A stretch of DNA of 64,000 nucleotides from Devosia sp. Root635 (lineage in GTDB: Bacteria; Pseudomonadota; Alphaproteobacteria; Rhizobiales; Devosiaceae), in contig NZ_LMGZ01000019.1 of assembly GCF_001427605.1 (NCBI RefSeq), forward strand, positions 186,001-250,000, given 5' to 3'. The notes below the pieces were generated by a model. That model saw only the letters and a list, made by a program, of their open reading frames with translations. It did not search any database and was not told the origin of the DNA. A program made the translations under genes and the position numbers. Positions 19,944-51,011 of this stretch are shown one piece after another; the first letter of the stretch is position 1, and each line of letters starts with the position of its first letter.

Positions 19944-19958
19944 ATGACAATTGCTCAT
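19944..19958. promoter_or_regulatory. Putative LysR operator, ATGAC-N5-CTCAT
   Basis: ATGACAATTGCTCAT, followed by GCG, lies between a PrpD-family gene and the downstream binding-protein gene. It matches the dyad found upstream of the other transport and catabolic operons in the island (one mismatch between arms) and has the T-N11-A form of LysR boxes. Confidence 0.55.
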
Positions 19959-19968
19959 GCGAACGGCA

Positions 19969-21318
19969 TCAAGCAACCGTGAAGCGCGCCGCGATCATGC
20001 TCACCGGCAGGCCAGAATCGATCTGCCCCAGATCGGCGATCAGGCCGGCGACACCCTGGGCGCCGATGGACGGCTCGGCCAGCAGATGCACCTTCTGATT
20101 GAGGTCGGCTTCCGACATAGGATTTTCGATCGAACCGCGCGGGTGATCGACCTGCGAACGATAGACCTTGCCCGAAGCGGTGGTGAGTTCCAGCAGGCAG
20201 GACACGCCGCGCGGCAGGCCATCGTCCGGCAGCACCTCGAGCATATTGGAAAGACGAACGATCTGCGGATCGGCCAATCGCTCATTCTGGTATTGCGGGA
20301 ACAGGGCTGCGCCGTCGATCAGTGCCACGGCGACCGAGTAGGGCAAGCTCACCTGTGCCTCATGGTAGGTCTTGGGAGCGGTGTTGAGATGGTAGTGGGC
20401 CCAGGCGGGGTGGCGCCACATCTTCATGCTGGCGATCGCTTCGGCGGGCTCATCCATTTCCGCCCGCACATTCAGCGCGCAATCGATGGCGTTGTGAATG
20501 GGCCGGGCGCAGGAATACGGCTTGTATTCTATATAGATCGGGAAGTCCGAGCCCAGGTCGCGGGTCAGTGCGCCGATATCGCTTTCGTCGGAAAAGGCGC
20601 GACAGAAGCCACGCTCGCCTTCGAAAATGGAGGCCGTGCCAGTGAAGCCCAGTTGGGCCATGAGTGCGGACGTTACGCCGTTTCGTGCGGCCGGGCCGGG
20701 ATTGAAGCGCTTCTGCATGGAGGGGCCATACATTTCCATGAGCCCCGACGCCTGGGCGCCAGCCATGCCGAGGGCGGACACGACCTGCTCCTCATTAAGG
20801 CGCAGAAGGCGCGCAGCGGCTATGGTGGCCCCGAAGACACCACAAGTTGGCGTGGTGTGATAGCCACGATTGCGCAGCGAGAAATTGGTGGCATTGCTGG
20901 CGCGGGCCATCATGTCGCAACCGGCCACTACGGCGGTGATGAACTCGCTGCCGCTGGCGCCGACACGCTCGGCCACGGCCAGTGCCGCCGAGACCACGGG
21001 CGGGCTGAAATGGAACAGCGCCAGCACATCCACATCGTCCAGCTCGATGGAATGGGAAGCGATGGCATTGGCGAAGGCGGCATGGACCGCCGGCACTTTG
21101 GCCGAGCCGCCCCCGATCAGGCTGGCTTCGGCCTTGCCGCCGGTTTCGACGGCAAACTGGCGGGCGATGCGGCCGCTGCCGGTACGGCTGCCGCCCAGGG
21201 CAACGCCCAGATAGTCACGCACCAGCGTAGCCGCATCCTTGCGGACCTTGGCGGGAACGGCGTCATCGGCGAGATTGACGAAATGATGGGCAAGCTGTTC
21301 GGAAGCGGTCTTTGTCAT
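19969..21318 (-). CDS. MmgE/PrpD family protein (1)
   Basis: About 449 residues, normal for the 2-methylcitrate dehydratase/aconitate decarboxylase (MmgE/PrpD) superfamily. Family features include RDYLGVALGGSRTG, ASHSIELDDVDVLALFH, FVTAVVAGCDM-like FITAVVAGCDM, GYHTTPTCGVFGATIAAARLL and MQKRFNPGPAARNGV. Such enzymes dehydrate or decarboxylate branched tricarboxylates. The ATG is the first compatible with the family N-terminus; upstream codons belong to another frame. It is one of three paralogues in the window and sits last in the run that starts with the thiolase-like gene. Confidence 0.9.
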   Translation of the reverse strand: MTKTASEQLAHHFVNLADDAVPAKVRKDAATLVRDYLGVALGGSRTGSGRIARQFAVETGGKAEASLIGGGSAKVPAVHAAFANAIASHSIELDDVDVLALFHFSPPVVSAALAVAERVGASGSEFITAVVAGCDMMARASNATNFSLRNRGYHTTPTCGVFGATIAAARLLRLNEEQVVSALGMAGAQASGLMEMYGPSMQKRFNPGPAARNGVTSALMAQLGFTGTASIFEGERGFCRAFSDESDIGALTRDLGSDFPIYIEYKPYSCARPIHNAIDCALNVRAEMDEPAEAIASMKMWRHPAWAHYHLNTAPKTYHEAQVSLPYSVAVALIDGAALFPQYQNERLADPQIVRLSNMLEVLPDDGLPRGVSCLLELTTASGKVYRSQVDHPRGSIENPMSEADLNQKVHLLAEPSIGAQGVAGLIADLGQIDSGLPVSMIAARFTVA

Positions 21319-21370
21319 TGCATAGGTCCAGTTGCGGGAACGGGCCCGGCCGCGCCGGGACCGGGTCGGA

Positions 21371-22174
21371 TTAGTGCGGATCGGCGTCGAGGCGCACGAT
21401 GATGCCTTCGCAGGCCGGGTTGGGCGCGGGATAGCGCTGCATGACCAGGGGGTCATGGCCGGGAATGATGTGATCGGGCGAAGGCGCGGCGGCCTGGAGC
21501 TTGTCGAAACCCTCCAGCATCTCCCCGATATGGAAGGCCGTCGTGAAGGGCCGGTAACTCGCCATGTTCTCATAGAAATGGGACACATCCGATGCCAGCA
21601 CCACCACGCCGCGCCGGGTGTTGACGGTCACGAATTGCAGGCCCGCCGAATGACCGCCCGCCGCGTGCAGGTGAATACCCGGCGCCAGCTCGGCCGAGCC
21701 GCCATAGAAGCGGACGCGGCTCTCGTAGTTGAGCCGCACCATGCCGCAGACATCCTCGACCTCGAAGGCATGCGAGAGACGCGGGTAGCGCATGTAACGC
21801 CCGGTGGCGTAATGCATCTCGGCTTCCTGCAGGTGGAACTGGGCGGCGGGGAAGCGGTGGAAATTTCCGACATGGTCGTAATGGAGATGGGTCAGAATGA
21901 CGTCGGCAACCTGGTCCGGATCGACATCCAGCAGCGCCAGCGTGTCGACGGGACAGCGCAGGAAGGTTCGCTCACGCTTGCGGGCGACGTCTTCGGTGAA
22001 GCCGGCATCCACCACGATGGCGCGACCATCGCCCTTGATGACCCACATATAGTAATCCATGGGCATGGGTCCGTCATGCGGATCGCCGCCGATGAAGTGG
22101 CTGGAGCGCCGGGCCTCGCGGGTGGCGTAGCGGATGGCGTAGATTTCGTAGACGGGTGGTTGCTTGTCGGTCAT
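21371..22174 (-). CDS. MBL-fold hydrolase, N-acyl-homoserine-lactonase-like
   Basis: 267 residues with the metallo-beta-lactamase zinc motif THLHYDHVGN, the later ligand His in AAGGHSAGLQ, the bridging Asp in VVLASDVSHF and the C-terminal IIPGHDPLV. The layout matches AiiA-type lactonases. In this setting a role in opening a lactone intermediate of the organic-acid pathway is as likely as quorum quenching. It starts within two bases of the PrpF-like stop. Confidence 0.88.
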   Translation of the reverse strand: MTDKQPPVYEIYAIRYATREARRSSHFIGGDPHDGPMPMDYYMWVIKGDGRAIVVDAGFTEDVARKRERTFLRCPVDTLALLDVDPDQVADVILTHLHYDHVGNFHRFPAAQFHLQEAEMHYATGRYMRYPRLSHAFEVEDVCGMVRLNYESRVRFYGGSAELAPGIHLHAAGGHSAGLQFVTVNTRRGVVVLASDVSHFYENMASYRPFTTAFHIGEMLEGFDKLQAAAPSPDHIIPGHDPLVMQRYPAPNPACEGIIVRLDADPH

Positions 22175-22175
22175 G

Positions 22176-23345
22176 TCACGCTCCCGCCGCTGCCGGATCT
22201 GGGATGAAGACCCGGCCTTCGAGAATACGCCTTGCGGTGCGACCCAATGTGGCGCGCCGCACGACCGGGCCGTCCGGCCCGGCTTCGACCAGGGTTTCGG
22301 TCTCGATCACCCCTCCGGGATGGCCGATGCGGATTTCGGCACCGCCGCGTTGGCGAGCCGCTGCATGAACCAGGGTGCCGGGAATGCGTGCCGCGACGCC
22401 GGTGCAGACCGTGCTGGTGCCGGCATAGGTCTTGTGGGTCTGCTGCATGAATTGCAGCCGGGCCAACAGATCGATGGCATCGGCAGGGACGGTCTCCCCG
22501 GTCAGGTGGTTGAGATAGTCGGCCGGCGGGGCGACCAGGCCGAGGATAGGAGTTGCCGGGCTGTCCTGGCGCGAGCGTGACGCGTCGGCAATCATCCTCA
22601 TGCGGGCCGCAGCCGCGCCGCGGATCAGCTCAAGCCGCTGGCGCAGCTCGGTCTGCGCATCGATCTCGGCAGCACTTTCCGTGCCGGTCAGGCCCATATC
22701 GGCGGCGCGAATGAAGACATGGGCATTGCCGATATCCACCAGCGATACGTCGACCGCGCCGACGCCCGGCACGTCCAGCCTGTCCACGACATTGCCGGTG
22801 GGCAGCAGGGCGCCGGTGGCGCCGCCCGCCGTATCGGCAAAATCGACGAGGATGCGGGCACCGGTACCGGGAACGCCGGCAACTTCATAATCGCCGTGTT
22901 CGGCGGGACGCCCCTCAAGCACCGGCACCTCGATGGTGAGGACGCGGTTGAGGTTGGTGTTGAAGACACGCACAATGGTCAGCGGCTCGTCGGCGGCGAC
23001 CATGCCCTCCTCGATGGCGAAGGCGCCCACGGCGGAGGAGATGTTGCCGCAGAGGCTCAGCCAGTCGACCTGCGGATGATCGATCTCCACCTGGCCGAAT
23101 GTGTAGGTCAGGTGCGTACCGGCGGCACGCAAGTCATCTTCCCGTGGCGGCCCGATAATGGCCAGCTTGCTGGTTAGCGGATCTGCCCCGCCCAGCCCGT
23201 CGATCTGCCGCCGGTCGGGCGAGCCGAAGATGGACAGGATGGTGCGCAGCCGCCCGCCCGGATCGGCCGGGATGTCGTTTTCACGCAGAAACACCGCCTT
23301 GCTGGTGCCGCCGCGCATCAGCACGCATCGAATGGCTTGCGGCAT
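22176..23345 (-). CDS. PrpF-family isomerase (1), 4-oxalomesaconate tautomerase-like
   Basis: 389 residues. The PrpF signature CVLMRGGTSKAVFLRE opens the protein, followed by SPDRRQIDGLGGADPLTSKLAI, WLSLCGNISSAVG (active-site Cys region) and the C-terminal RIGHPGGVIETE. The fold is that of diaminopimelate epimerase. Known members isomerise aconitate, methylaconitate or 4-oxalomesaconate. It is co-transcribed with the CoA-transferase pair upstream and the MBL hydrolase and PrpD-like genes downstream. A paralogue is at 35612. Confidence 0.9.
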   Translation of the reverse strand: MPQAIRCVLMRGGTSKAVFLRENDIPADPGGRLRTILSIFGSPDRRQIDGLGGADPLTSKLAIIGPPREDDLRAAGTHLTYTFGQVEIDHPQVDWLSLCGNISSAVGAFAIEEGMVAADEPLTIVRVFNTNLNRVLTIEVPVLEGRPAEHGDYEVAGVPGTGARILVDFADTAGGATGALLPTGNVVDRLDVPGVGAVDVSLVDIGNAHVFIRAADMGLTGTESAAEIDAQTELRQRLELIRGAAAARMRMIADASRSRQDSPATPILGLVAPPADYLNHLTGETVPADAIDLLARLQFMQQTHKTYAGTSTVCTGVAARIPGTLVHAAARQRGGAEIRIGHPGGVIETETLVEAGPDGPVVRRATLGRTARRILEGRVFIPDPAAAGA

Positions 23346-27871: not shown

Positions 27872-27994
27872 GGAAATAGTGTGTCCTCATCCCCAATTTG
27901 TTTGATTTCGCGCCCACATGGCAGAGGCCGAAGACGCATCGGGAATGTTGCAGGCGGGTCTTTTGGGGTAAAGAAATGAAATGGAGCCCGTGCC

Positions 27995-28012
27995 CCAACA
28001 AAAACTCATGCG
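27995..28012. promoter_or_regulatory. Putative LysR operator, degenerate left arm
   Basis: CCAACAAAAACTCATGCG lies in the 296-base gap between the LysR gene and the thiolase-like operon. The right part AAAACTCATGCG is identical to that of the site at 34372; the left arm is weaker (CCAAC in place of ATGAC). The rest of the gap holds a short GC hairpin at 28065-28082 and no coding potential. Confidence 0.45.
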
Positions 28013-28167
28013 ATCAAAAATAGCTTTTATCTTCAGCCGGTTATTTTGGGCGGCGAGGGCAATACCGGCCCTGGAGGGCCGGCGGGAGATGCGTTGAACT
28101 GGGGTGCGAAGCCGGGCCGATTTGCCTGCGGCGTGGCGAAGAAAGCCGGTCTCCGCGCGGCTGCGCG

Positions 28168-29088
28168 CTAGACGCGGATCAGGAAGGAATCGTCAAGGCC
28201 CTGGCGCTGCGCCTCGACCTCGCTGGCAAGCCATTCGCGGAAGCGGACCAAAGGCTCGAGTCGTGAATAGCGGTGCGGCCAGGTGAGGCAATAGACGCGC
28301 TCGCTCTGCCAGCCATAGGGGAACGGGACAACCAACGCCTTGCGCCTGAGTTCGTCGTCGATGAAATAGTATTGCGCAAGGGCTACACCCAACCCTCGCT
28401 CGGCCGCCGTATAGGCCATGGCCGAAGCCTCGAACCAGAAGCCGCGATCCGGCTCCACGCTATAGGCTCCGGTTCGGCGCAGCCAGGATGGCCAATTGCC
28501 CTTTACCGCCAGCGAATGCAGCAACGTCACCCGCGACAACTGCGACAGGTCGTTCGGATCGGAGAGGTAGGTATCGCGCAATTCGGGCGTGCAGATCGGC
28601 ACCATGCAGACCGGAAAGATCGGCTGGGCATTCTCGAACTGTCCCGGCCCGACCCGCAAAATGGCATGCGCCTGCTGCTGCTCGGCATTGGCCTCGCTGG
28701 TAGCGGCGGTCAATTGTATCTCGATATCGGGGTGCGCCTCCCGGAAGCGCTTGAGGCGCGGCACCAGCCAGTACATGGCGAAGGTGGTGTAGGCGTGGAT
28801 CAGCAACTGCTGTTCGTTGGACGAACGGGCGGCCCGATCGGTCGCCCAGCCGAGCTGGCGGAACACGCCCGCCAGCTCTCCGGCATATTTCTCGCCCGCC
28901 GGGGTCAGCAGTAAGGTGCGGTGGCCCCGGATGAACAATTGCCGCCCCAACCGATCCTCGAGATGGCGGATATGGCGGCTGACCGCCGACTGGGTCACGC
29001 ACAATTCGTCGGCCGCCTTGGTGAAGCTCAGGTGGCGCGCCGCCACTTCGAAAGCGCGAATAGAGGCAAGCGGGGGCAGATTGGTCAT
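28168..29088 (-). CDS. LysR-family transcriptional regulator, GcvA-like
   Basis: 306 residues. The winged HTH is at about 5-64 (LASIRAFEVAARHLSFTKAADELCVTQSAVSRHIRHLE, described here in parts), with the usual effector-binding domain behind it. GcvA-type regulators bind T-N11-A dyads and respond to a pathway metabolite. It is the last gene of a minus-strand run that begins at the alpha/beta hydrolase (34219) and lies next to the thiolase-like operon. It is the best candidate for the regulator that reads the ATGAC-N5-GTCAT sites of the island. Confidence 0.92.
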   Translation of the reverse strand: MTNLPPLASIRAFEVAARHLSFTKAADELCVTQSAVSRHIRHLEDRLGRQLFIRGHRTLLLTPAGEKYAGELAGVFRQLGWATDRAARSSNEQQLLIHAYTTFAMYWLVPRLKRFREAHPDIEIQLTAATSEANAEQQQAHAILRVGPGQFENAQPIFPVCMVPICTPELRDTYLSDPNDLSQLSRVTLLHSLAVKGNWPSWLRRTGAYSVEPDRGFWFEASAMAYTAAERGLGVALAQYYFIDDELRRKALVVPFPYGWQSERVYCLTWPHRYSRLEPLVRFREWLASEVEAQRQGLDDSFLIRV

Positions 29089-29120: not shown

Positions 29121-29519
29121 TCACGCCGCGTCGATTTCCTTGAAAGTCTCGACCGCAATCCGCATGCCGTCGAGCGCTGCCGGCGCGCCGCAATAGATGG
29201 CGGCCTGCAGGATCACTTCCTTCACTTCCTCGCGGGTCAGCCCATTGTTGAGGGCGCCGCGAATATGCAGCCGCAATTCGTGCGGCCGATTGAGTGCCAG
29301 CAGCATGCCCAGATTGAGCAGGCTGCGCGACCGGCGGTCCAGACCCGGACGGCTCCAGACCTCGCCCCAGCACCATTCCGTCACCAGCTTCTGCAAGGGA
29401 GCCGTCATATCATCGGCCGCCGCCACCGATCGGTCAACGTAGGCGCCACCAAGCACCTCCCGGCGGACCTTGAGACCCTTCTGAAACTGTTCGGTGGAGA
29501 ATTCGGGGCGGAGACTCAT
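29121..29519 (-). CDS. Carboxymuconolactone decarboxylase family protein
   Basis: 132 residues of the CMD/AhpD fold, PcaC-like: RREVLGGAYVDRSV, WGEVWSRPGLDRRSRSLLNLGML, and EVKEVILQAAIYCGAPAALDGM. It lacks the CxxC of AhpD peroxidase-type members, so a lactone decarboxylase or unknown role is likelier. The ATG has GAGAGG eight bases upstream; an ATG seven codons earlier is less well placed. It lies between the PrpD-like and LysR genes in the same operon. Confidence 0.88.
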   Translation of the reverse strand: MSLRPEFSTEQFQKGLKVRREVLGGAYVDRSVAAADDMTAPLQKLVTEWCWGEVWSRPGLDRRSRSLLNLGMLLALNRPHELRLHIRGALNNGLTREEVKEVILQAAIYCGAPAALDGMRIAVETFKEIDAA

Positions 29520-29550
29520 GCTGTTGTCCTCTCGTGGCATGGCAGGAAAA

Positions 29551-30888
29551 TTATCGGGGCCGTGCGAGACGCATCAACGCTCCCGCATCGGCTGCGTCAT
29601 CGAGCGACCAGACGGCGTCGATCAGGGGCGAAGGGTCGAGACCGGGGCAACCATGCTGGCAGAGCTGGCGCAGCTTCTCTTCGATCTCGGCATCGGATAG
29701 CGGACGCGAACGGCTGCCGCGCGCCTCGGCAATCTCGACCCGGAATACGCGACCGTCATTCGTCCGGGCGAAGAGGCGCGCCGTTCCGACCGGCAGGGCC
29801 GCATCGTCCGCAAGATGGACCCTGCCGCGCAGGGCGATGACATCTTCGCGGTCCACCCAGGCATCGCTGAACTGGTCGAGTCCCGGCAGGCCATGCAGCA
29901 AGGTGACAGCCACGGCGTGATGGGCGCTGACCTGAGCTTCGCGGCCGGAAAGGGGGACCGGTCGATCGGTGCGCTGCCGCAGCAGCGGATGGGCCACGAC
30001 TTCGATATAGGCCAGGTCCGGCACCGAGGCCCCCAGGCGATCGCGCAATGCCATGGCGGCATCGATCACCGCGTTCAATACGACACCGCAGGGATAGGGC
30101 TTGACCATATTGGCCAGGATTTCCCAGCTTTCACCCAGTCCCTGCATGATGCGGCTGAAGTCGGGAGAAGAGGCGGACACACGGGCAAAGCCGCGCATGC
30201 CGGCGATCGGTTCGTCCGGCCCGGCCAGTCCCTGTTCCGCCAGCAGGGCCGCGAAAAGCCCGCCACGGGCCGCACCCCCCACCCCCACGCTCTTGGCCAT
30301 GGTACCAAGCGTTTCCACGAGGCCCGAAGCCTGTGACGAGGCGCTGCCGAGGGCCCAGACCAGATGCCGCGCATCGAGGTCGAGCAGTTTCCCTGCCGCC
30401 ATGGCGGCGCCGAAAACGCCGCAGGTGGAGGTGATATGCCAGCCGCGCGCATAGTGTTCCGGCGAGATGGCATTGCCGATCCGGCATTCGATTTCGACGC
30501 CGAGGATGAAAGCGTGCAGCAGATCGCGGCCGGAAACCGGCCTCTGTTCCGCCAGCGCGAACAGCACCGGGGCTATCGGCGCCGTGGGATGGATGATCGT
30601 GGGATCATGCGTATCGTCGAAATCGAAGACGTTGCTGGCCGCCGCATTGAGGAAGGCGGCATTGAGCATGTCGAGGCGAAGCTGATGGCCGATGACGCCC
30701 GCTTCCGCCGGCCCCGAGAACCGCGACAGCACCTGCTGCAGATGCTGTATGGCGATGTCGCGGCTGCCGCCCAGCGCCGTACCGAAATAGCTGAGCAGAG
30801 CGCGCTTCGCCTCGTGCCGCACAGGCGCGGGGATATCCTCCCAGCGCGAGGCGGCGACGAAGTCGGTCAGGGCGGCGCTGACCGTCAC
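29551..30888 (-). CDS. MmgE/PrpD family protein (2)
   Basis: About 445 residues with the family pattern: LSYFGTALGGSRD, AAASNVFDFDDTHDPTIIHP (the conserved Asp pair), GWHITSTCGVFGAAMAAGKLL and MVKPYPCGVVLNAVID. It starts at a GTG overlapping the stop of the dehydrogenase gene upstream by four bases, which also agrees with the family N-terminus. Members dehydrate or decarboxylate citrate-like acids. It is more distant from the other two copies than they would be if recently duplicated, judged only by eye. Confidence 0.9.
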   Translation of the reverse strand: MTVSAALTDFVAASRWEDIPAPVRHEAKRALLSYFGTALGGSRDIAIQHLQQVLSRFSGPAEAGVIGHQLRLDMLNAAFLNAAASNVFDFDDTHDPTIIHPTAPIAPVLFALAEQRPVSGRDLLHAFILGVEIECRIGNAISPEHYARGWHITSTCGVFGAAMAAGKLLDLDARHLVWALGSASSQASGLVETLGTMAKSVGVGGAARGGLFAALLAEQGLAGPDEPIAGMRGFARVSASSPDFSRIMQGLGESWEILANMVKPYPCGVVLNAVIDAAMALRDRLGASVPDLAYIEVVAHPLLRQRTDRPVPLSGREAQVSAHHAVAVTLLHGLPGLDQFSDAWVDREDVIALRGRVHLADDAALPVGTARLFARTNDGRVFRVEIAEARGSRSRPLSDAEIEEKLRQLCQHGCPGLDPSPLIDAVWSLDDAADAGALMRLARPR

Positions 30889-31805
30889 TGCTTCGATCTC
30901 GCGCCAGCCACTTCGACATCGGCCCATTCTTCCAGCGGCTTGATGATCGTGGTCATATCGGCTTCGGCGCCATTCCTGGCCTTGGCCAGGGTCAGTAGCT
31001 GGTTGACCGCGCTGCCGATCATCATCGGCACGCCGAGCGATTGGGCCGCATCGAGGCACAGCTTGGTATCCTTGGCCGAAAGCCCCAGGGCAAAGCCGAA
31101 ATCGAAACTGCGCGACAGGACGAAGTTGGGCAGCTTGTCCACGGTGGCACTGTTGCGGGCGCTGCCCATGTTGAAGACTTCGATCATCACATCGGGGTCG
31201 AGACCCGCCCGCCGCCCCAGGACCAGCGCCTCCGAGGAAATTGCCAGGGCGGTCAGCGAGACGAGATTGTTGATGACTTTCATCATCTGCGCCTCGCCCG
31301 GCTTGGAACCGATATAGACGGGACGGCCGATGACCTGCAGCAGCGGCAGCAGAAGGTCGAAATCCTGCCTCTTGCCGGCAACCATCAGCGCCAAGGTGCC
31401 CTTGTTCGCCCCGGCGACCCCGCCGCTGACTGGGCAGTCGATGGTCGCGATGCCCGCTGCGGCGAGTTTTTCAGCCAGATTGGCCTCGGATTCCGGCCCC
31501 ACAGTGGAGAGGTCCACCACGCGCCGGAGCGTGTTGCCCTGTACAAGACCGGATTCGCCCAGGGCTACGGCGAGCACGATCTGCGGCGTGGGCAGCGACA
31601 GCAGCACTGTCTCGGCCCTGTTGGCGACATCAAGCGGGGACGAGGCGATCTCCGCGCCGTGCCCGGCGAGCTTTTGCAGCGCTTCAGTGTTGGGATCATA
31701 GGCGATGATCGGATAGCCGGCTTCGAGCAGGCGCCGGGCCATGGGAAAGCCCATATTGCCGATGCCGACGAAACCGATCACCGGATGTTGTGCCGGCCCG
31801 CTCAT
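30885..31805 (-). CDS. NAD(P)-dependent beta-hydroxyacid dehydrogenase (3-hydroxyisobutyrate dehydrogenase family)
   Basis: 306 residues. The Rossmann motif GFVGIGNMGFPMARRLLEAG opens the protein. The substrate loop DCPVSGGVAGANKGTLALMV and the catalytic Lys in GEAQMMKVINNLVS are present. Enzymes of this family oxidise 3-hydroxyisobutyrate, tartronate semialdehyde or similar acids. It overlaps the aldehyde dehydrogenase gene upstream and the PrpD-like gene downstream, so alcohol-to-aldehyde-to-acid steps may be linked. Confidence 0.92.
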   Translation of the reverse strand: MSGPAQHPVIGFVGIGNMGFPMARRLLEAGYPIIAYDPNTEALQKLAGHGAEIASSPLDVANRAETVLLSLPTPQIVLAVALGESGLVQGNTLRRVVDLSTVGPESEANLAEKLAAAGIATIDCPVSGGVAGANKGTLALMVAGKRQDFDLLLPLLQVIGRPVYIGSKPGEAQMMKVINNLVSLTALAISSEALVLGRRAGLDPDVMIEVFNMGSARNSATVDKLPNFVLSRSFDFGFALGLSAKDTKLCLDAAQSLGVPMMIGSAVNQLLTLAKARNGAEADMTTIIKPLEEWADVEVAGARSKQ

Positions 31806-33280
31806 TCTGCGAATTCCATCAGCACGGTTTTCAGGCGCATATTGGCTTCGACGGCCTGGCGGCCCAGATCCTTGCCGAAGCCGGACTGCTTGTAGCCGCC
31901 GGTCGGCAGGATGAAGTCCTTGGTGCGCCCGTAGCGGTTGATCCAGACCGTGCCCGTTTCCAGCGCCCGCATGGCGCGCATGGCGCGGCCGAGATCGGCC
32001 GTGTAGATGCCGGCGGCCAGGCCGTAGATGGAGTCATCGGCCATGGCGATGCCCTCCTCCTCGTCATCGAAGTGCTGGACGGTGACCACCGGTCCGAAGA
32101 TTTCCTCACGCACCGCTGGCATGTCCGATTTCACATTCACCAGAATGGTCGGCTCGTAGAAATTGCCGTCCTGAATATGCTCGATGCGATGGCCGCCTAT
32201 GGCCGCCTCGGCGCCGGCATCGAGCGCCGAACGCACCTTGGCGTCGATCTGGTCGAGCTGCCGCGCCGAGATGATGGGCGAGAAGGTCGTATCGCCCTTC
32301 CAGGTTGCACCGGGGCGGATGGCCTTGGCGATCGTGCCGACGCGATCGATCAGTTCGGCTTCGATATTGCGCTGGACGATCAGGCGTGTGCCGGTGACGC
32401 AGATTTGCCCGGCATTGCCCAGCATGGAGCGGGCGATGGACTGCGCGACCTTGTCGAGATTGGCGGCATCGCCGAAGACCAGTTGCGGGCTCTTGCCGCC
32501 CAATTCCAGTGTCACCGGCTTGGTGCCGCTTTCTGCCGACGCCGTCATCACGGCGGCGCCCGAGCGGCCAGAGCCGGTGAAGGTGATCTTGCCGACCAGC
32601 GGGTGCCGGCATAGGGCATCGCCGGTCACCGGGCCATTGCCCTGCACGATATTGAAGATGCCGGGCGGCATGCCGGCTTCGATGGCAAGCTCGGCCATGC
32701 GCATGACCGAAAATGGCGTCATTTCCGAGGGCTTGAGCACGACGGCATTGCCGGCCGCAAGGGCGGGGCCAACCTTCCAGGACACCGTCACCAGCGGCAC
32801 GTTCCACGGCGCAATCGCGGCGATGACGCCATAGGGCTCGGCGATGATGAGGCCGAGATGGTCGGGGCGGGTCGCTACCACATCACCGCCCAGCTTGTCG
32901 GCGAATTCGGCGAAGAAGCGGATAGCTTCGGCCGTAAACGGAACGTCCCAGCCGATGGCTTCGGAAATTGGCCGCGTCGAACCGACCGCTTCCAGCCGGG
33001 CGAGTTCCTCCTTGTTCGCTTCGATGAGATCGGCCCATCGGTACATGACCTTGGCGCGATCGCGCGGCGCGATCCGCGCCCATGCGGCCGTGCGGTAGGC
33101 GCGGTGGGCGCTGGTGACCGCGCGATCGACATCCTCGGCGCTGCCCAGGGGGATATCGGCATAGGGCTCGCTGTCGGAGGGCCGAATGACCTGCATGCGG
33201 TCGGCGCCCGCGCCAACGACCTTGCCGTCGATGAAATGGCCTGACTTGGGGACAATCAGGTTGGGGTCAAAATCATGCAT
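31802..33280 (-). CDS. Aldehyde dehydrogenase family protein
   Basis: About 492 residues. APWNVPLVTVSWKVGPALAAGNAVVLKPSE, FTGSGRSGAAV, VTLELGGKSPQLVF (catalytic Glu) and GNAGQICVTGTRL (catalytic Cys) are all intact. It oxidises an aldehyde to an acid with NAD(P)+; the substrate is unknown. The ATG at 33280 has GGAAG at good spacing; a GTG two codons earlier is less likely. It is coupled to the beta-hydroxyacid dehydrogenase gene by an ATGA overlap. Confidence 0.93.
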   Translation of the reverse strand: MHDFDPNLIVPKSGHFIDGKVVGAGADRMQVIRPSDSEPYADIPLGSAEDVDRAVTSAHRAYRTAAWARIAPRDRAKVMYRWADLIEANKEELARLEAVGSTRPISEAIGWDVPFTAEAIRFFAEFADKLGGDVVATRPDHLGLIIAEPYGVIAAIAPWNVPLVTVSWKVGPALAAGNAVVLKPSEMTPFSVMRMAELAIEAGMPPGIFNIVQGNGPVTGDALCRHPLVGKITFTGSGRSGAAVMTASAESGTKPVTLELGGKSPQLVFGDAANLDKVAQSIARSMLGNAGQICVTGTRLIVQRNIEAELIDRVGTIAKAIRPGATWKGDTTFSPIISARQLDQIDAKVRSALDAGAEAAIGGHRIEHIQDGNFYEPTILVNVKSDMPAVREEIFGPVVTVQHFDDEEEGIAMADDSIYGLAAGIYTADLGRAMRAMRALETGTVWINRYGRTKDFILPTGGYKQSGFGKDLGRQAVEANMRLKTVLMEFAE

Positions 33281-33328
33281 GATCACGCTTCCATGAAATG
33301 AGCGGCCGACGCTTGCGCCAAGCCGGTG

Positions 33329-34219
33329 TTACGAGAGCGGCGCCGCGGCATGCTGCCGCCCGTCGGGTTGGGACCAGGTTGGCGCCAGCATATGCGCCAG
33401 TGTCTCGTTGAATTCCTCGGCCGCCTCATACTGAACCCAGTGGGCCGCATGCTCGATGACAGCGAAACGGCAATCGGGGTCGCGCGCCCGCAGGATGTCC
33501 ATGCGCTCCTCCAGCACGCCCGGCCAGTTCACGTCGCCGCGCCCCCAGATGGCGCCGAGAGGCACATTGATTTCGGCCAGCGCAGCGGCAGCGGCGCCCC
33601 TGGCGGTGATTTGCCGACTGCGGAGCCGTGTTCGTTCGGCATTGCGCGCCTGGATGGCAACCGTGTCATCGCCAACGTGGCCGGCATCGGCCAGCATGAA
33701 GGCGATCAGATTGTGCCGATGCGCCGCATCCCTGTCGGCAGGCTCGGGCAGACCGCGCCACTTGCGCAGGAGCGGACGAGGCGTCGGAACGCCACCCAGT
33801 GCGGCGCCGGCACCGACCAGCACAAGGCGGTCGAGACGATGCGCCTGCAGCCCCGCCACCAGGCTGCCCACGGTGCTACCGAAGGAAAAGCCGGCCATCT
33901 GCAGCCGTTGTCCAGGCAGGATTTCGTCGAGCCCGCAGCTAAGGGCCGCCGCTATGCCGGCGATTGTGTGCGGTTCGGCCAAATCCGCGGAATCGCCATA
34001 GCCGGGCATGTCGGGCACGATGACCCTGTGGGTGCGGGCGAGCGCTTCGATATTGCGCAGCCAGTGAGTCCAGGAGCCGTGGCCACCATGCAGCAGGACG
34101 AGTGGCGGGCCCCCGCCCCAGGCCCGCCAGGTCATGGTTCCGGCGTCCAGCCTGCTGAGCAGTCGGGAACTGGAGCGATCCAGACGCTCGGCAAGCTGGA
34201 GGGAATTGGCCGCTTGCAT
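33329..34219 (-). CDS. Alpha/beta-fold hydrolase (MhpC-like)
   Basis: 296 residues. The fold is shown by LVLLHGGHGSWTHWLRNIE, VIVPDMPGYGDS, the nucleophile elbow MAGFSFGSTVGS (Ser), and the late Asp/His (IWGRGDVNW, VIEHAAHWVQYE). MhpC-type enzymes hydrolyse C-C bonds of ring-fission products, and others cut esters or lactones. It is the first gene of the minus-strand run leading to the aldehyde dehydrogenase and LysR genes and faces the second binding-protein operon across a 341-base region. Confidence 0.88.
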   Translation of the reverse strand: MQAANSLQLAERLDRSSSRLLSRLDAGTMTWRAWGGGPPLVLLHGGHGSWTHWLRNIEALARTHRVIVPDMPGYGDSADLAEPHTIAGIAAALSCGLDEILPGQRLQMAGFSFGSTVGSLVAGLQAHRLDRLVLVGAGAALGGVPTPRPLLRKWRGLPEPADRDAAHRHNLIAFMLADAGHVGDDTVAIQARNAERTRLRSRQITARGAAAAALAEINVPLGAIWGRGDVNWPGVLEERMDILRARDPDCRFAVIEHAAHWVQYEAAEEFNETLAHMLAPTWSQPDGRQHAAAPLS

Positions 34220-34371
34220 AACGATGTCGAACTCCTCTCCTCACGGCGAGCAATGGCCCACGTTAACCATCTGAATTTATTAGATAAATAAATCCAGGTT
34301 TACCGTTTTACCGCGACAAAGAAGGCACGTGTAGGGACCGGAATGTCAATAAAACTTACCTGGGTCGTGGC

Positions 34372-34386: not shown

Positions 34387-34427
34387 GCGGTGATGGACAG
34401 CCATTTGCCACGTCGACCAGTCTTGCC

Positions 34428-35591: not shown

Positions 35592-35611
35592 TTCTCAGTC
35601 CCGAGAGATAG

Positions 35612-38145: not shown

Positions 38146-38915
38146 GTCTCAAGATCATCGTGCCCGTCAAAAGGGTGGTCGAAGCCAGTGTCCGTATCCG
38201 CCTTCGTTCGGATGGCGGCGGCCCTGACATTGCCAATGCCAAGATGGCAATGAACCCGTTTGACGAGATCGCTCTCGAAGAGGCCGTGCGCCTGCGTGAA
38301 CAAGGCCTTGCCGACGAGGTGCTGGCGGTCAGCATCGGGCCGCAGGCCGCGCAGGAGACCTTGCGGACGGCATTGGCGCTGGGCGCAGACCGGGCCGTGC
38401 TGGTGGAAACCGGCGCGGCGATCGAACCGCTGGCGATTGCCAGGATACTTGCCGCGATCGTCGCCGAAGAAGGGGCACACCTCGTCCTCATGGGCAAGCT
38501 CTCCATCGACGAGGACAACAACCAGACCGGCCCGATGCTGGCCGGATTGCTGGGCTGGGGACAGGCCAATTGCGCCTCCAACATCGCGCTTTCCCAAAAC
38601 ACCGCCCGCGTGACCTGCGAAACCGATGCTGGGCTGGAGACGCGCGATGTCCCCCTGCCCGCCGTCATCACCGCCGATCTGCGCCTCAACGAGCCGCGCT
38701 ACCCATCCCTTCCCAACATCATGAAGGCCAAGAAGAAGCCGCTCGAAACGCGCCCGCTCGATGCTTTTGGCATCGACACCTCGCCCCGTCTCAGGCGCAT
38801 GGAAATCCGTGAACCGCCCGAGCGGCAGGCGGGGCTGGTGGTGGAGTCGGTCGATGACCTGATCGCCCGGCTGCGGGAAGCCGATCTGATACCGTCCGGG
38901 AGGGCCGTACAATGA
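38142..38915 (+). CDS. etfB: Electron transfer flavoprotein, beta subunit
   Basis: 257 residues with the ETF-beta fold: KIIVPVKRVVEASVRIR, NPFDEIALEEAVRLRE, the AMP/nucleotide loop MGKLSIDEDNNQTGPMLAGLL and the recognition-loop region RYPSLPNIMKAKKKP, which docks acyl-CoA dehydrogenases. ETF carries electrons from flavin dehydrogenases to ETF:quinone oxidoreductase. It overlaps etfA by four bases. Its place in a catabolic operon suggests a dedicated copy. Confidence 0.95.
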   Translation: MSLKIIVPVKRVVEASVRIRLRSDGGGPDIANAKMAMNPFDEIALEEAVRLREQGLADEVLAVSIGPQAAQETLRTALALGADRAVLVETGAAIEPLAIARILAAIVAEEGAHLVLMGKLSIDEDNNQTGPMLAGLLGWGQANCASNIALSQNTARVTCETDAGLETRDVPLPAVITADLRLNEPRYPSLPNIMKAKKKPLETRPLDAFGIDTSPRLRRMEIREPPERQAGLVVESVDDLIARLREADLIPSGRAVQ

Positions 38916-39841
38916 CCATTCTTGTTCTGGCCGATCATCATGACGGCATGCTTGCGGGCACGGTGTCGCGCGTGGTGACGGCGGCGCGGGAAATCGGAGG
39001 CACCATCGACATTCTGGTTGCCGGCCACGATTGCGGGGCAATCGCCGCGGCGGCGGCCGAAATTGCGGGGGTGAACCGCGTGTTCTGCGCCGACGATCCA
39101 CGCTACGAGCATGGGCCGGCCGAGCGGATTGCCGACCTGCTGGTCAGCCTGGCGCCCGGCTATGACGTGCTGATGGCTCCGGCCAGTTCCGCAGCCAAGG
39201 CGATCATGCCGCGCGTTGCCGCGATGCTGGACGTGATGCAGGTTTCCGAAATCGTGGCGGTGCGGGGGCCGGACAGGTTCGACCGGCGCATCTATGCCGG
39301 CAATGCCATCCTGACCGTCGAGGCGCAGGATTCATGCAAGGTGCTGACGGTGCGGGCATCGGCCTTTGCCGATGCCGGGCGCGGCGCGGCAGCGCCTATC
39401 GAACCCATTGCCCCGATCGAGGGCCCGGCGCTTTCGAGCTTCGTTTCGCTCGAAGCATCCCGCAGCGACCGTCCTGACCTGGCCACGGCGCGCGTCGTGG
39501 TGTCCGGTGGCCGGGCCTTGCGCAGCAAGGAGAGCTTTGCCGAGTTGATCCTGCCCCTGGCCGACAGACTGGAGGCCGCGGTCGGCGCATCCCGCGCGGC
39601 GGTGGATGCCAGCTTCGTCGGCAACGACGTTCAGGTCGGCCAGACCGGCAGGATCGTGGCGCCGGACCTCTATATCGCCTGTGGCATTTCCGGCGCCATC
39701 CAGCATCTGGCGGGGATGAAGGACAGCCGCGTCATCGTTGCCATCAACACTGACGCACAGGCACCGATCATGCGGCTGGCCGACTTTGCCCTCGTTGCCG
39801 ATATTTTCGAGGCTCTGCCGGAGCTGACGCGAAAGCTGTAG
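38912..39841 (+). CDS. etfA: Electron transfer flavoprotein, alpha subunit
   Basis: 309 residues. The C-terminal FAD-binding part is well kept: VVSGGRALRSKESFAEL, VGQTGRIVAPDLYIACGISGAIQHLAGM and VIVAINTDAQAPIMRLADF. It forms a heterodimer with the product of the overlapping etfB. The likely electron donor in this island is the acyl-CoA dehydrogenase encoded at 49696-50886. Confidence 0.95.
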   Translation: MTILVLADHHDGMLAGTVSRVVTAAREIGGTIDILVAGHDCGAIAAAAAEIAGVNRVFCADDPRYEHGPAERIADLLVSLAPGYDVLMAPASSAAKAIMPRVAAMLDVMQVSEIVAVRGPDRFDRRIYAGNAILTVEAQDSCKVLTVRASAFADAGRGAAAPIEPIAPIEGPALSSFVSLEASRSDRPDLATARVVVSGGRALRSKESFAELILPLADRLEAAVGASRAAVDASFVGNDVQVGQTGRIVAPDLYIACGISGAIQHLAGMKDSRVIVAINTDAQAPIMRLADFALVADIFEALPELTRKL

Positions 39842-39937
39842 CAGCCTGCCTGCCCCCGGACATGAGTGGCGCTCGCACAGGTGGCAACCCTATGGGCCCT
39901 TCCTATCCCAAGAATTTCTACAAGCGTGAGGACGACG

Positions 39938-42568
39938 ATGAACAAGGCGGTGGCGGCGGCAGAAGCAACAGGCGCGAAAAGCGCCGCGGCGGCCAGCAAG
40001 GGCATGCTGGACGGCGTCCGTGTCATCGAGATCGCCGACGAAAGTGCCGAATATTGCGGCCTGCTGCTCGCTGGCCTTGGCGCGGACGTGATCAAGATCG
40101 AACCGCCTGGTGGCAGCGCCACACGGCGCATCGGCCCGTTTTTTGACGATGAGGCCCATCCCGACCGGTCCCTGCATTTCTGGAACTACAATCGCGGCAA
40201 GAAGTCCGTCATCCTCGACCTGGCTGCCGGGGCGGACCGGAACCGGCTGCTCCTGCTGCTCGAAGGCGCCGACGTGCTGCTCGATTCCACCAGAGGCGGC
40301 ATTGCCGGCGCGCTGGGCATGACACGCGCCGAGCTGCTGGCCCGGTTTCCGGGCCTCGTCCTGTCGCGCATGACGCCCTTTGGCGATGCCGGGCCGTGGA
40401 AGGACTATGCCGGCTCTGACCTGGTGCATCTGGCGCTTGGCGGGGTGATGATGAATTGCGGCTACGACCCCGACCCCGATGGCCGCTACGAGCTGGCGCC
40501 GATCGCGCCGCAGGCCTGGCAGGCCTATCACATTGCCGGCGAACAACTGGCGATTGCCATCGTGGCGGCATTGCTGGCGCGCCGGCGCGACGGCAAGGGC
40601 CAGGATGTGTCCTGCGCTATCCACGACGCGGTGGCCAAGAATACCGAGCTGGATCTGATGTATTGGGTCATGCGGCGGGTGCCGCTCTATCGCCAGACCG
40701 GGCGCCATGCGCGCGAAAAGATCGATCCGGTGCCCACGATCAGCCAGACCAGTGACGGCCGGTGGTTCCTGACCTGGATCGCCGCGCGGCAGAACCAGGA
40801 TGAAATCGTCGACTTCTTCGCCCGTCATGGCTTCACCGAAGGCGTGCGCGAGGCCCTGCCCCGGCCGCCGTCGAATGCGCGGCCAGTGGTGGGCGGGCGC
40901 GACATTCCCGGCACCGGCGAGACCGATGAACGCGCCGTGGCGCTGGACGCCATCATACGCGATTTCACGCGCAGCTTCACCGCCGAGGACATGCCCTGGC
41001 GGGAGGCGCAGGATGTGGGCCTGCTCTGGTCTCCCTTGCGTAAGCCACATGAGGCCGCCGACGACCCGCACTGGCTGGAGCGCCAGACCCTGGCGGAGGT
41101 GGACCATCCCGAACTGGGCCGCAGCTTCCGCTATGTCACCAGCAAATGGCTGAGCAATGCCACTGCCTGGCAGGTCGGCCGCCGGGCGCCGCTGCTGGGC
41201 GAGGATACGACCGCCGTCCTCGGCGCGCCGATCGTTCCGGCGCGCGTGGAGCCCGCGTTGCGCAAGACGGAGCCGCTGCGCCTGGCTGCAAATGGCAAGC
41301 CCTTTGCGCTGCAGAATATCCGTATCCTGGATTTCTCCTGGTTCCTGGCTTCGGCAGGCGGCACGCGGTTCATGGCCGGGCTGGGCGCGGAATGCCTCAA
41401 GGTGGAGTGGAAGGGCAATCCGGACACGCGCTTTGCAGCCATGGCGCCGGTGGGTGGCCGCGCCGCCCGCGCCGTCGCTACCGGTCCGTTGCCAGGCGAG
41501 ACCGACCCCAGCATGGGCGGGCAGTTCAACAACAAGAATTCCGGCAAGCGTGGCTTTTCGCTCAATATCAAGCATCCCAGGGGACTGGATATCGCCAAGC
41601 GGCTGGTGGCCATGTCCGACGTGGTGGCGGAGGGCTTTTCCCCCGGCGTTCTCGAGCGGCTTGGCCTGGGCTATGACGTGATGCGCCAGATCAAGCCGGA
41701 TATCATCTATGTGCAGCAATCCGGCATGGGCACGCGCGGCAGCTATGGGCGCATGCGCACGGTGGGCCCGGTAGCGGCTGCCTTTGCGGGCGTTTCGGAA
41801 ATGTCGGGCATGCCCGAGCCAGCCATGCCCACCGGCTGGGGCTATTCTTTCCTCGACTGGATGGGCGCCTATGGCTTCGCCTTGGCAACATTGGGCGCGC
41901 TCTATCATCGAGAGCGCACCGGGGAGGGCCAATGGATCGATTCCTCGCAATGCGAAAGCGGCATCTTCCTCAATGGCACGGCCATTCTGGACTGGTCGGT
42001 CAATGGGCGCGTTACCAGGCGCACCGGCAATCGTTCGCTTCACAAACCGGCGGCACCGCACGGCGCTTTCCGCTGTGCGGGCACTGACCGCTGGCTGGCC
42101 ATCGCCTGTTTTACCGAGACCGAATGGATGGCGTTGGCCAATGTAGCCGGGCGGCCGCAATGGCTGGCCGATCCCCGTTTTGCCACGCTCGATGCGCGAC
42201 TGGCCAACCAGGATGCGCTGGAGACCGAAGTCACGGCCTGGACCAGCGGCGAGGACGCCTTTGCCCTCATGCACCGGCTGCAGGCGGCGGGCGTGCCGGC
42301 CGGCGTCTGCCAGACGGCGCAGGACAAGATCGAGCGCGATCCGCAACTGGCGGCGCTGGACTGGCTGACCGAGGTCACCGGCACCAGGATAGGCCGCTGG
42401 CCGGTGGCGGAACTGCCGATGAAATTCAGCCGAAGCACCGCCCATATCGGCGGCGTTACCGAGCGCGGGGCGCCCATGTATGGCGAGGACAATGTCTATG
42501 TCCTGCGCGACCTGCTGGGGTTCGACGAGGCCGATATCCGCAAGCTGGCCGAAGAAGACGTGATCTAG
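39938..42568 (+). CDS. Tandem-fused family III CoA-transferase
   Basis: 876 residues, twice the normal CaiB/BaiF length. Domain 1 spans about 25-440 (GVRVIEIADESAEYCGLLLAGLGADVIKIEPPGG, quoted in part). Domain 2 spans about 460-870 (IRILDFSWFLASAGGTRFMAGLGAE). Domain 1 keeps Asp at the catalytic position (IHDAV, D230), while domain 2 has Glu (QCESG, E673). It is followed in domain 2 by the typical VEWKGNPDT and NNKNSGKRGFSLNIKHP loops. The ATG is chosen for GAGG six bases upstream. It is the last gene of the plus operon. The split pair at 23388-25555 is its functional counterpart by layout. Confidence 0.88.
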   Translation: MNKAVAAAEATGAKSAAAASKGMLDGVRVIEIADESAEYCGLLLAGLGADVIKIEPPGGSATRRIGPFFDDEAHPDRSLHFWNYNRGKKSVILDLAAGADRNRLLLLLEGADVLLDSTRGGIAGALGMTRAELLARFPGLVLSRMTPFGDAGPWKDYAGSDLVHLALGGVMMNCGYDPDPDGRYELAPIAPQAWQAYHIAGEQLAIAIVAALLARRRDGKGQDVSCAIHDAVAKNTELDLMYWVMRRVPLYRQTGRHAREKIDPVPTISQTSDGRWFLTWIAARQNQDEIVDFFARHGFTEGVREALPRPPSNARPVVGGRDIPGTGETDERAVALDAIIRDFTRSFTAEDMPWREAQDVGLLWSPLRKPHEAADDPHWLERQTLAEVDHPELGRSFRYVTSKWLSNATAWQVGRRAPLLGEDTTAVLGAPIVPARVEPALRKTEPLRLAANGKPFALQNIRILDFSWFLASAGGTRFMAGLGAECLKVEWKGNPDTRFAAMAPVGGRAARAVATGPLPGETDPSMGGQFNNKNSGKRGFSLNIKHPRGLDIAKRLVAMSDVVAEGFSPGVLERLGLGYDVMRQIKPDIIYVQQSGMGTRGSYGRMRTVGPVAAAFAGVSEMSGMPEPAMPTGWGYSFLDWMGAYGFALATLGALYHRERTGEGQWIDSSQCESGIFLNGTAILDWSVNGRVTRRTGNRSLHKPAAPHGAFRCAGTDRWLAIACFTETEWMALANVAGRPQWLADPRFATLDARLANQDALETEVTAWTSGEDAFALMHRLQAAGVPAGVCQTAQDKIERDPQLAALDWLTEVTGTRIGRWPVAELPMKFSRSTAHIGGVTERGAPMYGEDNVYVLRDLLGFDEADIRKLAEEDVI

Positions 42569-49439: not shown

Positions 49440-49655
49440 ATGCTCCTCCTTTGAGAAATCGAGCGAAATCCTATCGCGGCGCTTGTCGCGCTCTCTGTCA
49501 AAGCTGACGTCCGGTCGCAGCGGAGTTGCTAATCGCTGCCCGCGACCGCGAACGCTCCGTTGCCGACCTTCTCACGTCGATGCGCCCTTTGCGCATCGGC
49601 AAAAAGGCTAGCACTGCCCAAAAATGCTGGAAAAGGATGATTTGGCGGGAGTCGG

Positions 49656-49670
49656 ATGACATTTAGTCAT
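49656..49670. promoter_or_regulatory. Putative LysR operator, ATGACATTTAGTCAT
   Basis: Perfect dyad ATGAC-N5-GTCAT followed by GC, between the acyl-CoA dehydrogenase stop and the tctB start, about 215 bases before tctB. The rest of this 256-base gap shows no gene. Confidence 0.65.
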
Positions 49671-49695
49671 GCCTGTCGCTGCCCGCCTTGCCCGG

Positions 49696-50886
49696 TCAGA
49701 GCACCGGCTGCCCGTTGCGCAGCAGGTCGCGCGCAATGGTCCAGCGATGAATTTCGCTGGCGCCCTCGACAATGCGCTGCACGCGATAGGCCCGATAGAT
49801 ATATTCGATCGGCGATTCCTTGCTCAGCCCCATGCCACCCAGCAGCTGCACGGCGCGATCGGCCACCCGTCCGATCATCTCGCTTGCCTGGAGCTTGACC
49901 ATGGAGGCCTCGCGGCGCACATCCTTTTCGCCGCTATCGATGCGCCAAGCCAACCTGTAGGCCAGCAGGCGGCACATCTCCATTTCCTGGTGACTGTCGG
50001 CGATCCACCATTGCACGGCCTGCCGTTCGGCCAGTTTCTGGCCGAAGGTCGAGCGGTTGTTGGCATGCTCGAGCATGATATCGAGGCACCGCCGCGCGGC
50101 GCCCAGCGCCTTTGCGGCGATTTCCATGCGGCGGATACCGAGCCGGTTCTGTAGCGGAATGAAGGCGTCGCCGACCTCACCGAGCACCTGCTCATCGCCC
50201 AGTTCAACATTGTCGAAATGAATGCCGAAGGTCAGGTATTCCCCGGCAATGGTCGGATAGGACGACGGGATCGTTACGCCGGGCGTGTTCTTGTCGACCA
50301 GAAATGCCGTCATGCCGCCGCGCTGGCGCTTGTCAGGGTCGGTCACGGCAATGACGATCATGAAATCGGCGCTCATCAGGTGGCTGATGAAGATCTTTTC
50401 GCCATTGAGTATCCACTTGCCGTTGCGCCGCTCGGCCCTTGTGCTCATGCCCCCGATATCGGAGCCGGCGCCCGGTTCGGTGAGGGCCAGGCATGACTTT
50501 TTCTCGCCCTTGCCATAGGGGATCAGATAGCGCTCGATCTGCTCGCCCTTGCAGCAGGACTTGAGGAAATGCAGGTTCGGACTGTCCGGCGCCAGGGTCA
50601 GGGGCACCACCGAATAGCGTAACTGCTCGATCACTGTCAGCTTGGTAAGTGCGCCCAGATCCTGGCCGCCGAATTCTTCGGGCAGGTCGATGCCCCAAAG
50701 GCCCAGCGCCTTGGCCTTTTCCTGCAGGTCCGCTTCCACCTCGGGTGGCACCAACGGCTGCGCCGTTCCGGCAATCGCTGCTTCGCGGCGCAGGATCATC
50801 GGCTCCAGCGGGAGCAATTCGTTCTTCACAAAGCGCTGAACGACATCCCTGATCATCTTGTTGTCGTCGGACAGTTCGAAATCCAT
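49696..50886 (-). CDS. Acyl-CoA dehydrogenase
   Basis: About 396 residues, normal length. CLALTEPGAGSDIGGMSTRAERRNGKWILNGEKIFIS (in parts) is the FAD/substrate region. RSTFGQKLAERQAVQWWIAD and QLLGGMGLSKESPIEYIYRAYR are family motifs, and the catalytic Glu is in RIVEGASEIH. It oxidises an acyl-CoA and passes electrons to ETF. The ATG with GGAGG five bases upstream is chosen. It is a single gene under a LysR-type dyad, so it is probably part of the same regulon. Confidence 0.94.
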   Translation of the reverse strand: MDFELSDDNKMIRDVVQRFVKNELLPLEPMILRREAAIAGTAQPLVPPEVEADLQEKAKALGLWGIDLPEEFGGQDLGALTKLTVIEQLRYSVVPLTLAPDSPNLHFLKSCCKGEQIERYLIPYGKGEKKSCLALTEPGAGSDIGGMSTRAERRNGKWILNGEKIFISHLMSADFMIVIAVTDPDKRQRGGMTAFLVDKNTPGVTIPSSYPTIAGEYLTFGIHFDNVELGDEQVLGEVGDAFIPLQNRLGIRRMEIAAKALGAARRCLDIMLEHANNRSTFGQKLAERQAVQWWIADSHQEMEMCRLLAYRLAWRIDSGEKDVRREASMVKLQASEMIGRVADRAVQLLGGMGLSKESPIEYIYRAYRVQRIVEGASEIHRWTIARDLLRNGQPVL

Positions 50887-50996
50887 CTGCGCCTCCATTC
50901 CCTACGCTTATTGAGACGGCACCAAACTGTGCCGCCGTTCTCGCGGATGGAGGGAGAAAGGACGTGACGGGTCAAACGATAAAACACCGGTGCAGG

Positions 50997-51011
50997 ATGA
51001 CTATAGGTCAC
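50997..51011. promoter_or_regulatory. Putative LysR operator, ATGACTATAGGTCAC
   Basis: Dyad with one mismatch (final T to C), about 110 bases before the acyl-CoA dehydrogenase start. It matches the other sites in spacing and left arm. The surrounding 274-base gap has no coding potential. Confidence 0.55.

Follow-up and report, generated by a model that had tools for sequence, protein, structure and literature searches.

Six short inverted repeats of the form ATGAC-N5-GTCAT lie along a catabolic island of Devosia sp. Root635, and they are probably the primary recognition sites of the island's own GcvA-like LysR protein, which would activate all six of the promoters that they accompany. The window, that is, the whole stretch of 64,000 nucleotides analysed, covers positions 186,001 to 250,000 of contig NZ_LMGZ01000019.1 (G000:C19:186001-250000; the genome, G000, comprises 3.82 Mb at 99.94% completeness). 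The island occupies positions 17982 to 51031 of the window, and the LysR gene (306 aa) lies at 28168-29088 on the minus strand. An earlier note on this DNA had proposed a regulon of LysR boxes across the island. That proposal was largely borne out by the rarity of the motif, the presence of one site per inferred transcription unit, a predicted position near -65, conservation in a related genome (G046), and dyads of the same form before related LysR genes. The putative regulon is of an ordinary kind, albeit unusually complete and regular, and is well supported in silico. For this 33-kb catabolic island, the outcome is a cis-regulatory map open to testing, in which one LysR would serve six promoters with a single fixed geometry.

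All six dyads were found where the earlier note had placed them. Those at 34428 and 49656 are perfect, and those at 19944, 34372 and 50997 have one mismatch each to ATGAC-N5-GTCAT. The site at 27995 is degenerate, as had been recorded: its left arm is lost (CCAACAAAAACTCAT), and the site is still supported by the leave-one-out matrix described below. The T-N11-A form had been ascribed to all sites, which was too broad. T-N11-A within an inverted repeat, as expected of recognition sites of LysR-type transcriptional regulators, is present at five of the six and absent at 27995. The GC(G) said to follow most dyads is GC after five of the six and GCG after four.

Reading direction and gaps arrange the 29 island genes scanned into six putative transcription units, the boundaries of which were drawn from the gaps. 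Gaps longer than 60 bp occur at 19774-19968, 27872-28167, 34220-34560, 49440-49695 and from 50899 to the island edge, and they hold one, one, two, one and one dyads, respectively. Each unit thus has one dyad, and the divergent gap 34220-34560 has one per direction, in keeping with the original remark that the sites lie in gaps before transporter and catabolic operons. Dyad 1 (19944-19958; ATGACAATTGCTCAT on the plus strand) marks the candidate promoter of the minus-strand unit TctC1-RraA, in which TctC solute-binding protein 1 (PF03401) is encoded at 18793-19773 and RraA at 17983-18744. Dyad 2, the degenerate one (27995-28009; ATGAGTTTTTGTTGG on the minus strand), belongs to the candidate promoter of a minus-strand operon running from 27871 to 19969, with domain matches to thiolase, OB-fold, enoyl-CoA hydratase, CaiB, CaiB, PrpF, a metallo-beta-lactamase fold and PrpD (PrpD1). 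Dyad 3 (34372-34386; GCATGAGTTTTAGTCATGC on the minus strand) stands before the candidate LysR operon, read on the minus strand from 34219 to 28168, in which genes for an alpha/beta-hydrolase, an aldehyde dehydrogenase, a HIBADH family member, PrpD and CMD (29121-34219) precede lysR, the last gene. Across the same gap, dyad 4 (34428-34442, plus strand; ATGACTGGAGGTCAT) marks the candidate promoter of a plus-strand operon from 34561 to 42568 that encodes TctC2, PrpF, PrpD, ETF beta, ETF alpha and a 900-aa CaiB-CaiB fusion. Dyad 5 (49656-49670, minus strand; perfect ATGACATTTAGTCAT) is assigned to the candidate promoter of the minus-strand operon TctB-TctA-PrpB-CitE-MFS-FAD_binding_2 (49439 to 42609), whose PrpB scores over its curated cut-off. 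Dyad 6 (50997-51011, minus strand; ATGACTATAGGTCAC), 20 bp inside the island edge, is assigned to that of an acyl-CoA dehydrogenase gene (49696-50898, minus strand).

The dyads are locked in position to predicted promoter boxes. In the direction of the genes, the 15-mer is followed at 22 bp by a -35-like hexamer in five promoters and at 21 bp in the sixth, and four of the six have a -10-like hexamer after a further 17 bp. These four are the predicted promoters of TctC1 (minus strand 19893-19921; TTGTTC at 19916-19921, GATAAT at 19893-19898), of the thiolase operon (minus strand 27944-27972; TTTACC at 27967-27972, AACATT at 27944-27949, with TGC before the -10), of the TctC2 operon (plus strand 34465-34493; TTGTCG at 34465-34470, GATAGT at 34488-34493) and of the TctB operon (minus strand 49605-49633; TTTCCA at 49628-49633, TAGCCT at 49605-49610, again with TGC before the -10). 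The LysR operon has a predicted -35 TTGACA (34344-34349, minus strand) and the acyl-CoA dehydrogenase gene a predicted TTGACC (50970-50975, minus strand), 21 bp from dyad 6, each with no good -10 seen. Summed over the six promoters, the -35 score was 23.8 at offset 22 and 3.5 at the next best offset (21); the mean maximum under the null was -0.7, and none of 5000 rotations reached 23.8. A -35 box at this distance, if correctly predicted, puts the centre of the dyad near -65, the usual position of LysR recognition sites. TCAT recurs at bases 16-19 after the 15-mer in three of the six promoters (none of 20000 shuffles reached three at one offset), which is a candidate for half of a second, weaker LysR site.

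The motif is concentrated in the island. A search of the whole genome for ATGAC-N6-TCATG returned seven rows representing six places, and the reversed control returned none. Four of the six places are inside the island, so the motif is not equally common elsewhere in the genome. The two remaining places are L002, inside a VWA-domain frame, and L001, which reaches the opening bases of the longest N-acetyltransferase frame; the domain of the latter starts only at residue 76, so this dyad may be upstream of the gene. The composite pattern GCATGA-N6-GTCAT-N22-TT is matched perfectly at exactly three places in the genome, and each of these is in the island. One mismatch adds three more: 34428; C19:21357, which lies inside long frames, one of which was scanned and had no Pfam match; and C23:170673, which begins on the final bases of a glycoside-hydrolase frame and might conceivably be a seventh site. 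With up to two mismatches there were 41 rows in total, compared with 5 for a reversed control whose dinucleotide content is also different. In a leave-one-out analysis, a matrix of the 19-bp dyad plus five -35 bases was run over ∼128,000 positions, with the five training sites among the competitors. The held-out site was outscored by 5 positions for 19944, 6 for 27995, 2 for 34372, 5 for 34428, 2 for 49656 and 6 for 50997, and the rank of 27995 argues that this degenerate site is also a member. Outside the island, the window holds ATGACAGGCTGACAT at 63700-63714, one mismatch from the dyad, where an open frame (62698-63711) ends; it was not counted as a site.

Conservation picks out the same elements. 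By blastn against G046, taken to be Devosia sp. Root436 (G046:C11:132001-192000), positions 17982-51031 align at 88.6-91.3% DNA identity, and the flanks have no alignment within the 60 kb compared. Contig NZ_LMEM01000011.1 of Root436 encodes a LysR with 98% identity to the island protein. Because the block aligns and its flanks do not, the segment holding all six dyads is a discrete island. Between the two genomes, 57 of 60 dyad-arm positions are identical, as are 105 of 114 when two flanking bases on each side are included, 136 of 156 in the linker and -35, and 678 of 957 in the remaining gap sequence. The first gap, where dyad 1 is identical, is nearly identical throughout (144/150) and hence little informative. 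In the strongly diverged gap 34220-34560, both dyads and their -35 boxes are islands of identity, and the predicted TctC2 promoter is kept despite its diverged surroundings. All ten arm positions of the degenerate dyad 2 are unchanged, and the counterpart of 50997 reads TGTGAG-N5-GTCAT followed by the same TTTTATCGTTTGAC. The motif is thus retained in the one orthologous island examined. Of 136 family genomes, only G000 and G046 have the island LysR (98-100% identity), and no others have four clustered sites; the dyad pattern plus C is present in 72 of the 136, with at most three matches per genome except in this pair.

The GcvA-like LysR gene, confirmed to lie inside the island, is the only regulator among the genes scanned. 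By its domains (HTH_1 plus a LysR-type effector domain) its product is assigned to the LysR-type transcriptional regulators, with an HTH_1 match over cut-off at G000:C19:214891-215067 and near full-length matches to the GcvA model and to PDB 8y6u. The sequence indicates a GcvA-like protein and not GcvA itself, since the best NCBIfam model, PRK11139 (GcvA), gave 264.4 bits and did not reach its curated cut-off of 288. The only solved chain matched at 1e-20 was 8y6u_H, the E. coli glycine cleavage system transcriptional activator (GcvA-type). Matches to the island LysR at E<=1e-40 occur in 28 of the 136 family genomes; besides G000 and G046, the matches listed are at most 41% identical.

Dyads of this form also precede related LysR genes. 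Among 78 GcvA-like LysR loci (32-40% identity to the island LysR), TGAS-N5-STCA was found within 250 bp before the LysR gene at 10, with 1.05 hits expected from the same loci. The spacings N2, N3, N4, N6, N7, N8 and N9 gave 0, 2, 0, 0, 1, 1 and 1 loci. ATGA-N7-TCAT stands before nine of the 78 genes (13 hits, 0.51 expected), and its N5 and N6 versions before five and three. Three of eight near relatives have a dyad before lysR (L086, L112 and L144, in TTGAG-N5-CTCA forms). A tree of 49 LysRs with dyads places the island protein in a seven-row group (96/96), in which the other six all have TCA dyads; the label of the island LysR was taken from the window sites, and the other six are independent. 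One of these, L249, has TGCATGAGGTTTAGTCATGCAA 32 bp before its own gene, close to dyad 3 at 34372. In a larger tree, the island LysR pairs with L149 (91/78), which has no dyad. In three related genomes (L115, L128 and L130), two ATGA-N7-TCAT dyads spaced 144-145 bp from each other precede the LysR gene. An ATGAC-N6-TCAT dyad in L084, L085 and L086, ∼7.3 kb from lysR, was considered as a conserved site and rejected because it is inside a conserved open frame.

Comparison of these loci suggested a rule, to which we give about an even chance of being right: in GcvA-like LysRs the half-site may be readable from the helix T-(Q/P)-x-A-(V/I)-S, with x=A accompanying TAA, as in GcvA, and x=S or T, and mostly G, accompanying TCA. 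The island LysR, with its six TCAT dyads, has x=S, a TCA-type residue. The rule was noticed on the first 78 loci (L068-L145). There, x=A went with TAA 26 times, TCA 3 times, both once and none 26 times; x=G with TCA 5 times and none 6 times; x=S with TCA 4 times and none once; x=T with TCA twice; and four unreadable rows had none. The prediction was fixed before fresh loci were viewed. The fresh loci (L227-L355) were the first 129 listed places after the protein's own gene, of which one was unreadable and 28 were dropped for at least 70% identity over the first 100 aa to a first-set row; 100 were kept, seven of them without a readable helix. In this set, x=A went with TAA 12 times, TCA once and none 38 times; x=S with TCA 9 times and none 11 times; x=T with TCA 3 times; x=G with TCA 5 times, TAA twice and none 12 times; and the seven unreadable rows all had none. 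Only rows with exactly one of the two dyad types entered the Fisher tests and the 49-protein tree. Residue and dyad type were associated in the fresh set (Fisher p 4.8e-6) and after thinning to 70% identity (68 rows; 6:0 vs 2:12, p 7e-4). The thinned-set exceptions, L254 and L329, both have x=G and Q instead of R after S. The 28 dropped rows (x=A: TAA 7, TCA 1, none 17; x=S: TAA 1, none 1; x=G: none 1) gave seven for the rule and two against it (L236 and L287). In many rows, neither type of dyad is present in strict form. Five of the 49 tree proteins break the rule, and dyad type changes four times in the tree (4-6 over bootstraps), with well-supported branches forcing only two changes. With so few changes, shared descent explains part of the association. 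No residue-to-half-site rule for LysR was found in the published text searched, parts of PMC6628147 and PMC5002191 included, with subscription papers mostly outside the search. If true, the rule would make the motifs and regulons of many uncharacterised LysRs of the GcvA-like subfamily predictable from sequence.

These observations can be combined into a mechanism, for which we infer that the island LysR is the protein that binds the dyads. A LysR tetramer would place one dimer on the 15-bp dyad near -65 and the other on weaker DNA adjoining the -35 box, and a substrate or pathway intermediate bound by LysR would lead to activation of all six promoters. Since every putative unit has one such promoter and lysR is last in one of the controlled operons, the regulator would also raise its own synthesis, a positive feedback. 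Activation rather than repression, the transcription starts, the operon structure and the dependence on an inducer are predictions from the sequence. Knowing the switch would offer a route to the island's substrate, via the compound that turns on the six promoters. The work also connects the TCAT half-site with an uncharacterised regulator of GcvA-like type, and it points to a simple rule relating residue and base across a large LysR subfamily.

Several observations weigh against this reading. At up to two mismatches, the bare 15-mer shows no enrichment in the window, with 13 occurrences against an expected 21.3; the signal therefore comes from the good dyads and from where they are placed. 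One arm is lost at 27995, 34372 and 50997 have poor -10 boxes, only three of the six promoters show a clear second half-site, and the -35 and -10 matrices were E. coli frequencies. The nearest LysR relatives beyond G046 are only ∼40% identical, and the island protein sits on a long branch, so that its placement in the trees is unsure. Five of the eight near relatives (G002, G123, L071, L084 and L085) have neither TGAS-N5-STCA nor ATGA-N7-TCAT in the 260 bp ahead of lysR. As only two genomes were found to have the island, the co-occurrence of LysR and motif represents one evolutionary event. Among eleven dyad places examined from other family genomes (L161-L171), seven are under a frame of at least 150 aa and four (L161, L162, L163 and L165) are not. 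The L165 dyad is near a carbonic anhydrase frame, and that of L161 is before a frame with no Pfam match. In L162 (∼8002) and L163 (∼4700), from genomes G012 and G055, a GGCATGA-N7-GTCATACC dyad precedes a peptide ABC-transporter operon (Pfam on L162 only). These two dyads, from the same genus, have no -35 at 22 bp, and a different LysR gene, with 27% identity to the island LysR, lies just upstream of each. The dyad form is therefore not private to the island LysR, which slightly lowered our confidence.

That a similar dyad sits beside another LysR in G012 and G055 lends some weight to the view that the dyads are operators of another regulator acting in trans, such as the LysR at 56891-57802 or a non-LysR factor. 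There are 24 HTH_1 matches in G000, and this second LysR gene is 5.9 kb from the island. We nevertheless regard such a regulator as unlikely. At E<=1e-90, a search of the other 135 family genomes, G046 among them, gave no match to the 56891 LysR, yet G046 keeps the sites, and on this ground that LysR was rejected. None of the 24 HTH_1 loci of G000 has TGAS-N5-STCA upstream (orientation is uncertain for a few, and the island lysR is itself inside an operon). In form, an odd-centred 15-bp dyad near -65 matches a LysR box, and CRP/FNR sites have TGA-N6-TCA spacing, which counts against a non-LysR factor. The second LysR gene, on the plus strand, is divergent from a Pyr_redox_2 gene.

Slightly less probable again is that the sites mainly repress, with LysR blocking the promoters until an inducer arrives. 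LysR proteins often repress in one state, and the linker to the -35 is partly conserved; a dyad 22 bp upstream of the -35, at about -65, is in the usual position for activation, however, and several weak -35 and -10 boxes are as expected for activator-dependent promoters. Chance, in the sense of short dyads and start-codon half sites picked by eye, could draw on the unenriched bare 15-mer but is very improbable given the genome-wide rarity, the composite matches, the -35 lock, the conservation in G046 and the leave-one-out ranks. Recognition of the dyads by the island LysR, leading to activation, thus remains the reading we favour.

The island itself has further features. Synteny with G046 breaks sharply at window positions 17982 and 51031, and with such ends the island looks like a transferable block. 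Its transporter and enzymes suggest that the substrate is a branched polycarboxylate degraded via CoA thioesters. Paralogous TctC (19166-19703 and 34639-35183) and PrpF (23149-23321 and 35625-35811) segments match at 72-75% DNA identity when the window is compared with the other G046 copy, and the TctC1 and TctC2 proteins are 55% identical; judged from these alignments, the two pairs are an old internal duplication in the island. A TctC2 search at 1e-90 over 397 order genomes (a draw) had only G000 among the matches listed, G046 not being among them. The 900-aa fusion of two CaiB-type CoA-transferases lies at 39866-42568 on the plus strand. Of the 397 order genomes, four others have this fusion, at 61-64% identity. 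The stretches around these four include a thiolase beside all four, an OB-fold gene in two, an alpha/beta-hydrolase in two, a 37% aldehyde dehydrogenase match in one and a 31% TctA match in one. None of the four has an island-LysR match at E 1e-25 or a dyad; the loci are not orthologous islands, so this absence is a weak control.

The predicted sites can be set beside those of known LysR systems. LysR proteins bind 15-bp inverted repeats, which in E. coli GcvA are ATTAG-n5-CTAAT centred at -65 and -43, and in MetR ATGAA-n5-TTCAT centred at -63 and -41 (PMC5002191, in part). For BenM and CatM, a T-N11-A dyad, ATAC-N7-GTAT, is accompanied by a less conserved second site next to the -35 (PMC6628147, in part). 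The Acinetobacter ben and cat regulons of BenM and CatM resemble the putative Devosia regulon in that LysR regulators govern catabolic operons through a T-N11-A dyad, and differ from it in half-site and subfamily. In the E. coli metE/metR system, the MetR half-site has nearly the same letters and position as the island dyads. MetR nonetheless belongs to a different LysR subfamily and has a different function from the island LysR. The E. coli GcvA system at the gcvB and gcvA promoters shares with the island the 15-bp inverted repeat, the 5-bp spacer and a primary site at -65, predicted in the case of the island. In contrast, its half-site is CTAAT where the island has (G/C)TCAT, and its helix reads TQAAVSHQI where the island LysR has TQSAVSRHI. 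Moreover, GcvA regulates glycine cleavage and a small RNA from a divergent gene, whereas the island LysR gene ends a catabolic operon and its product appears to serve six promoters.

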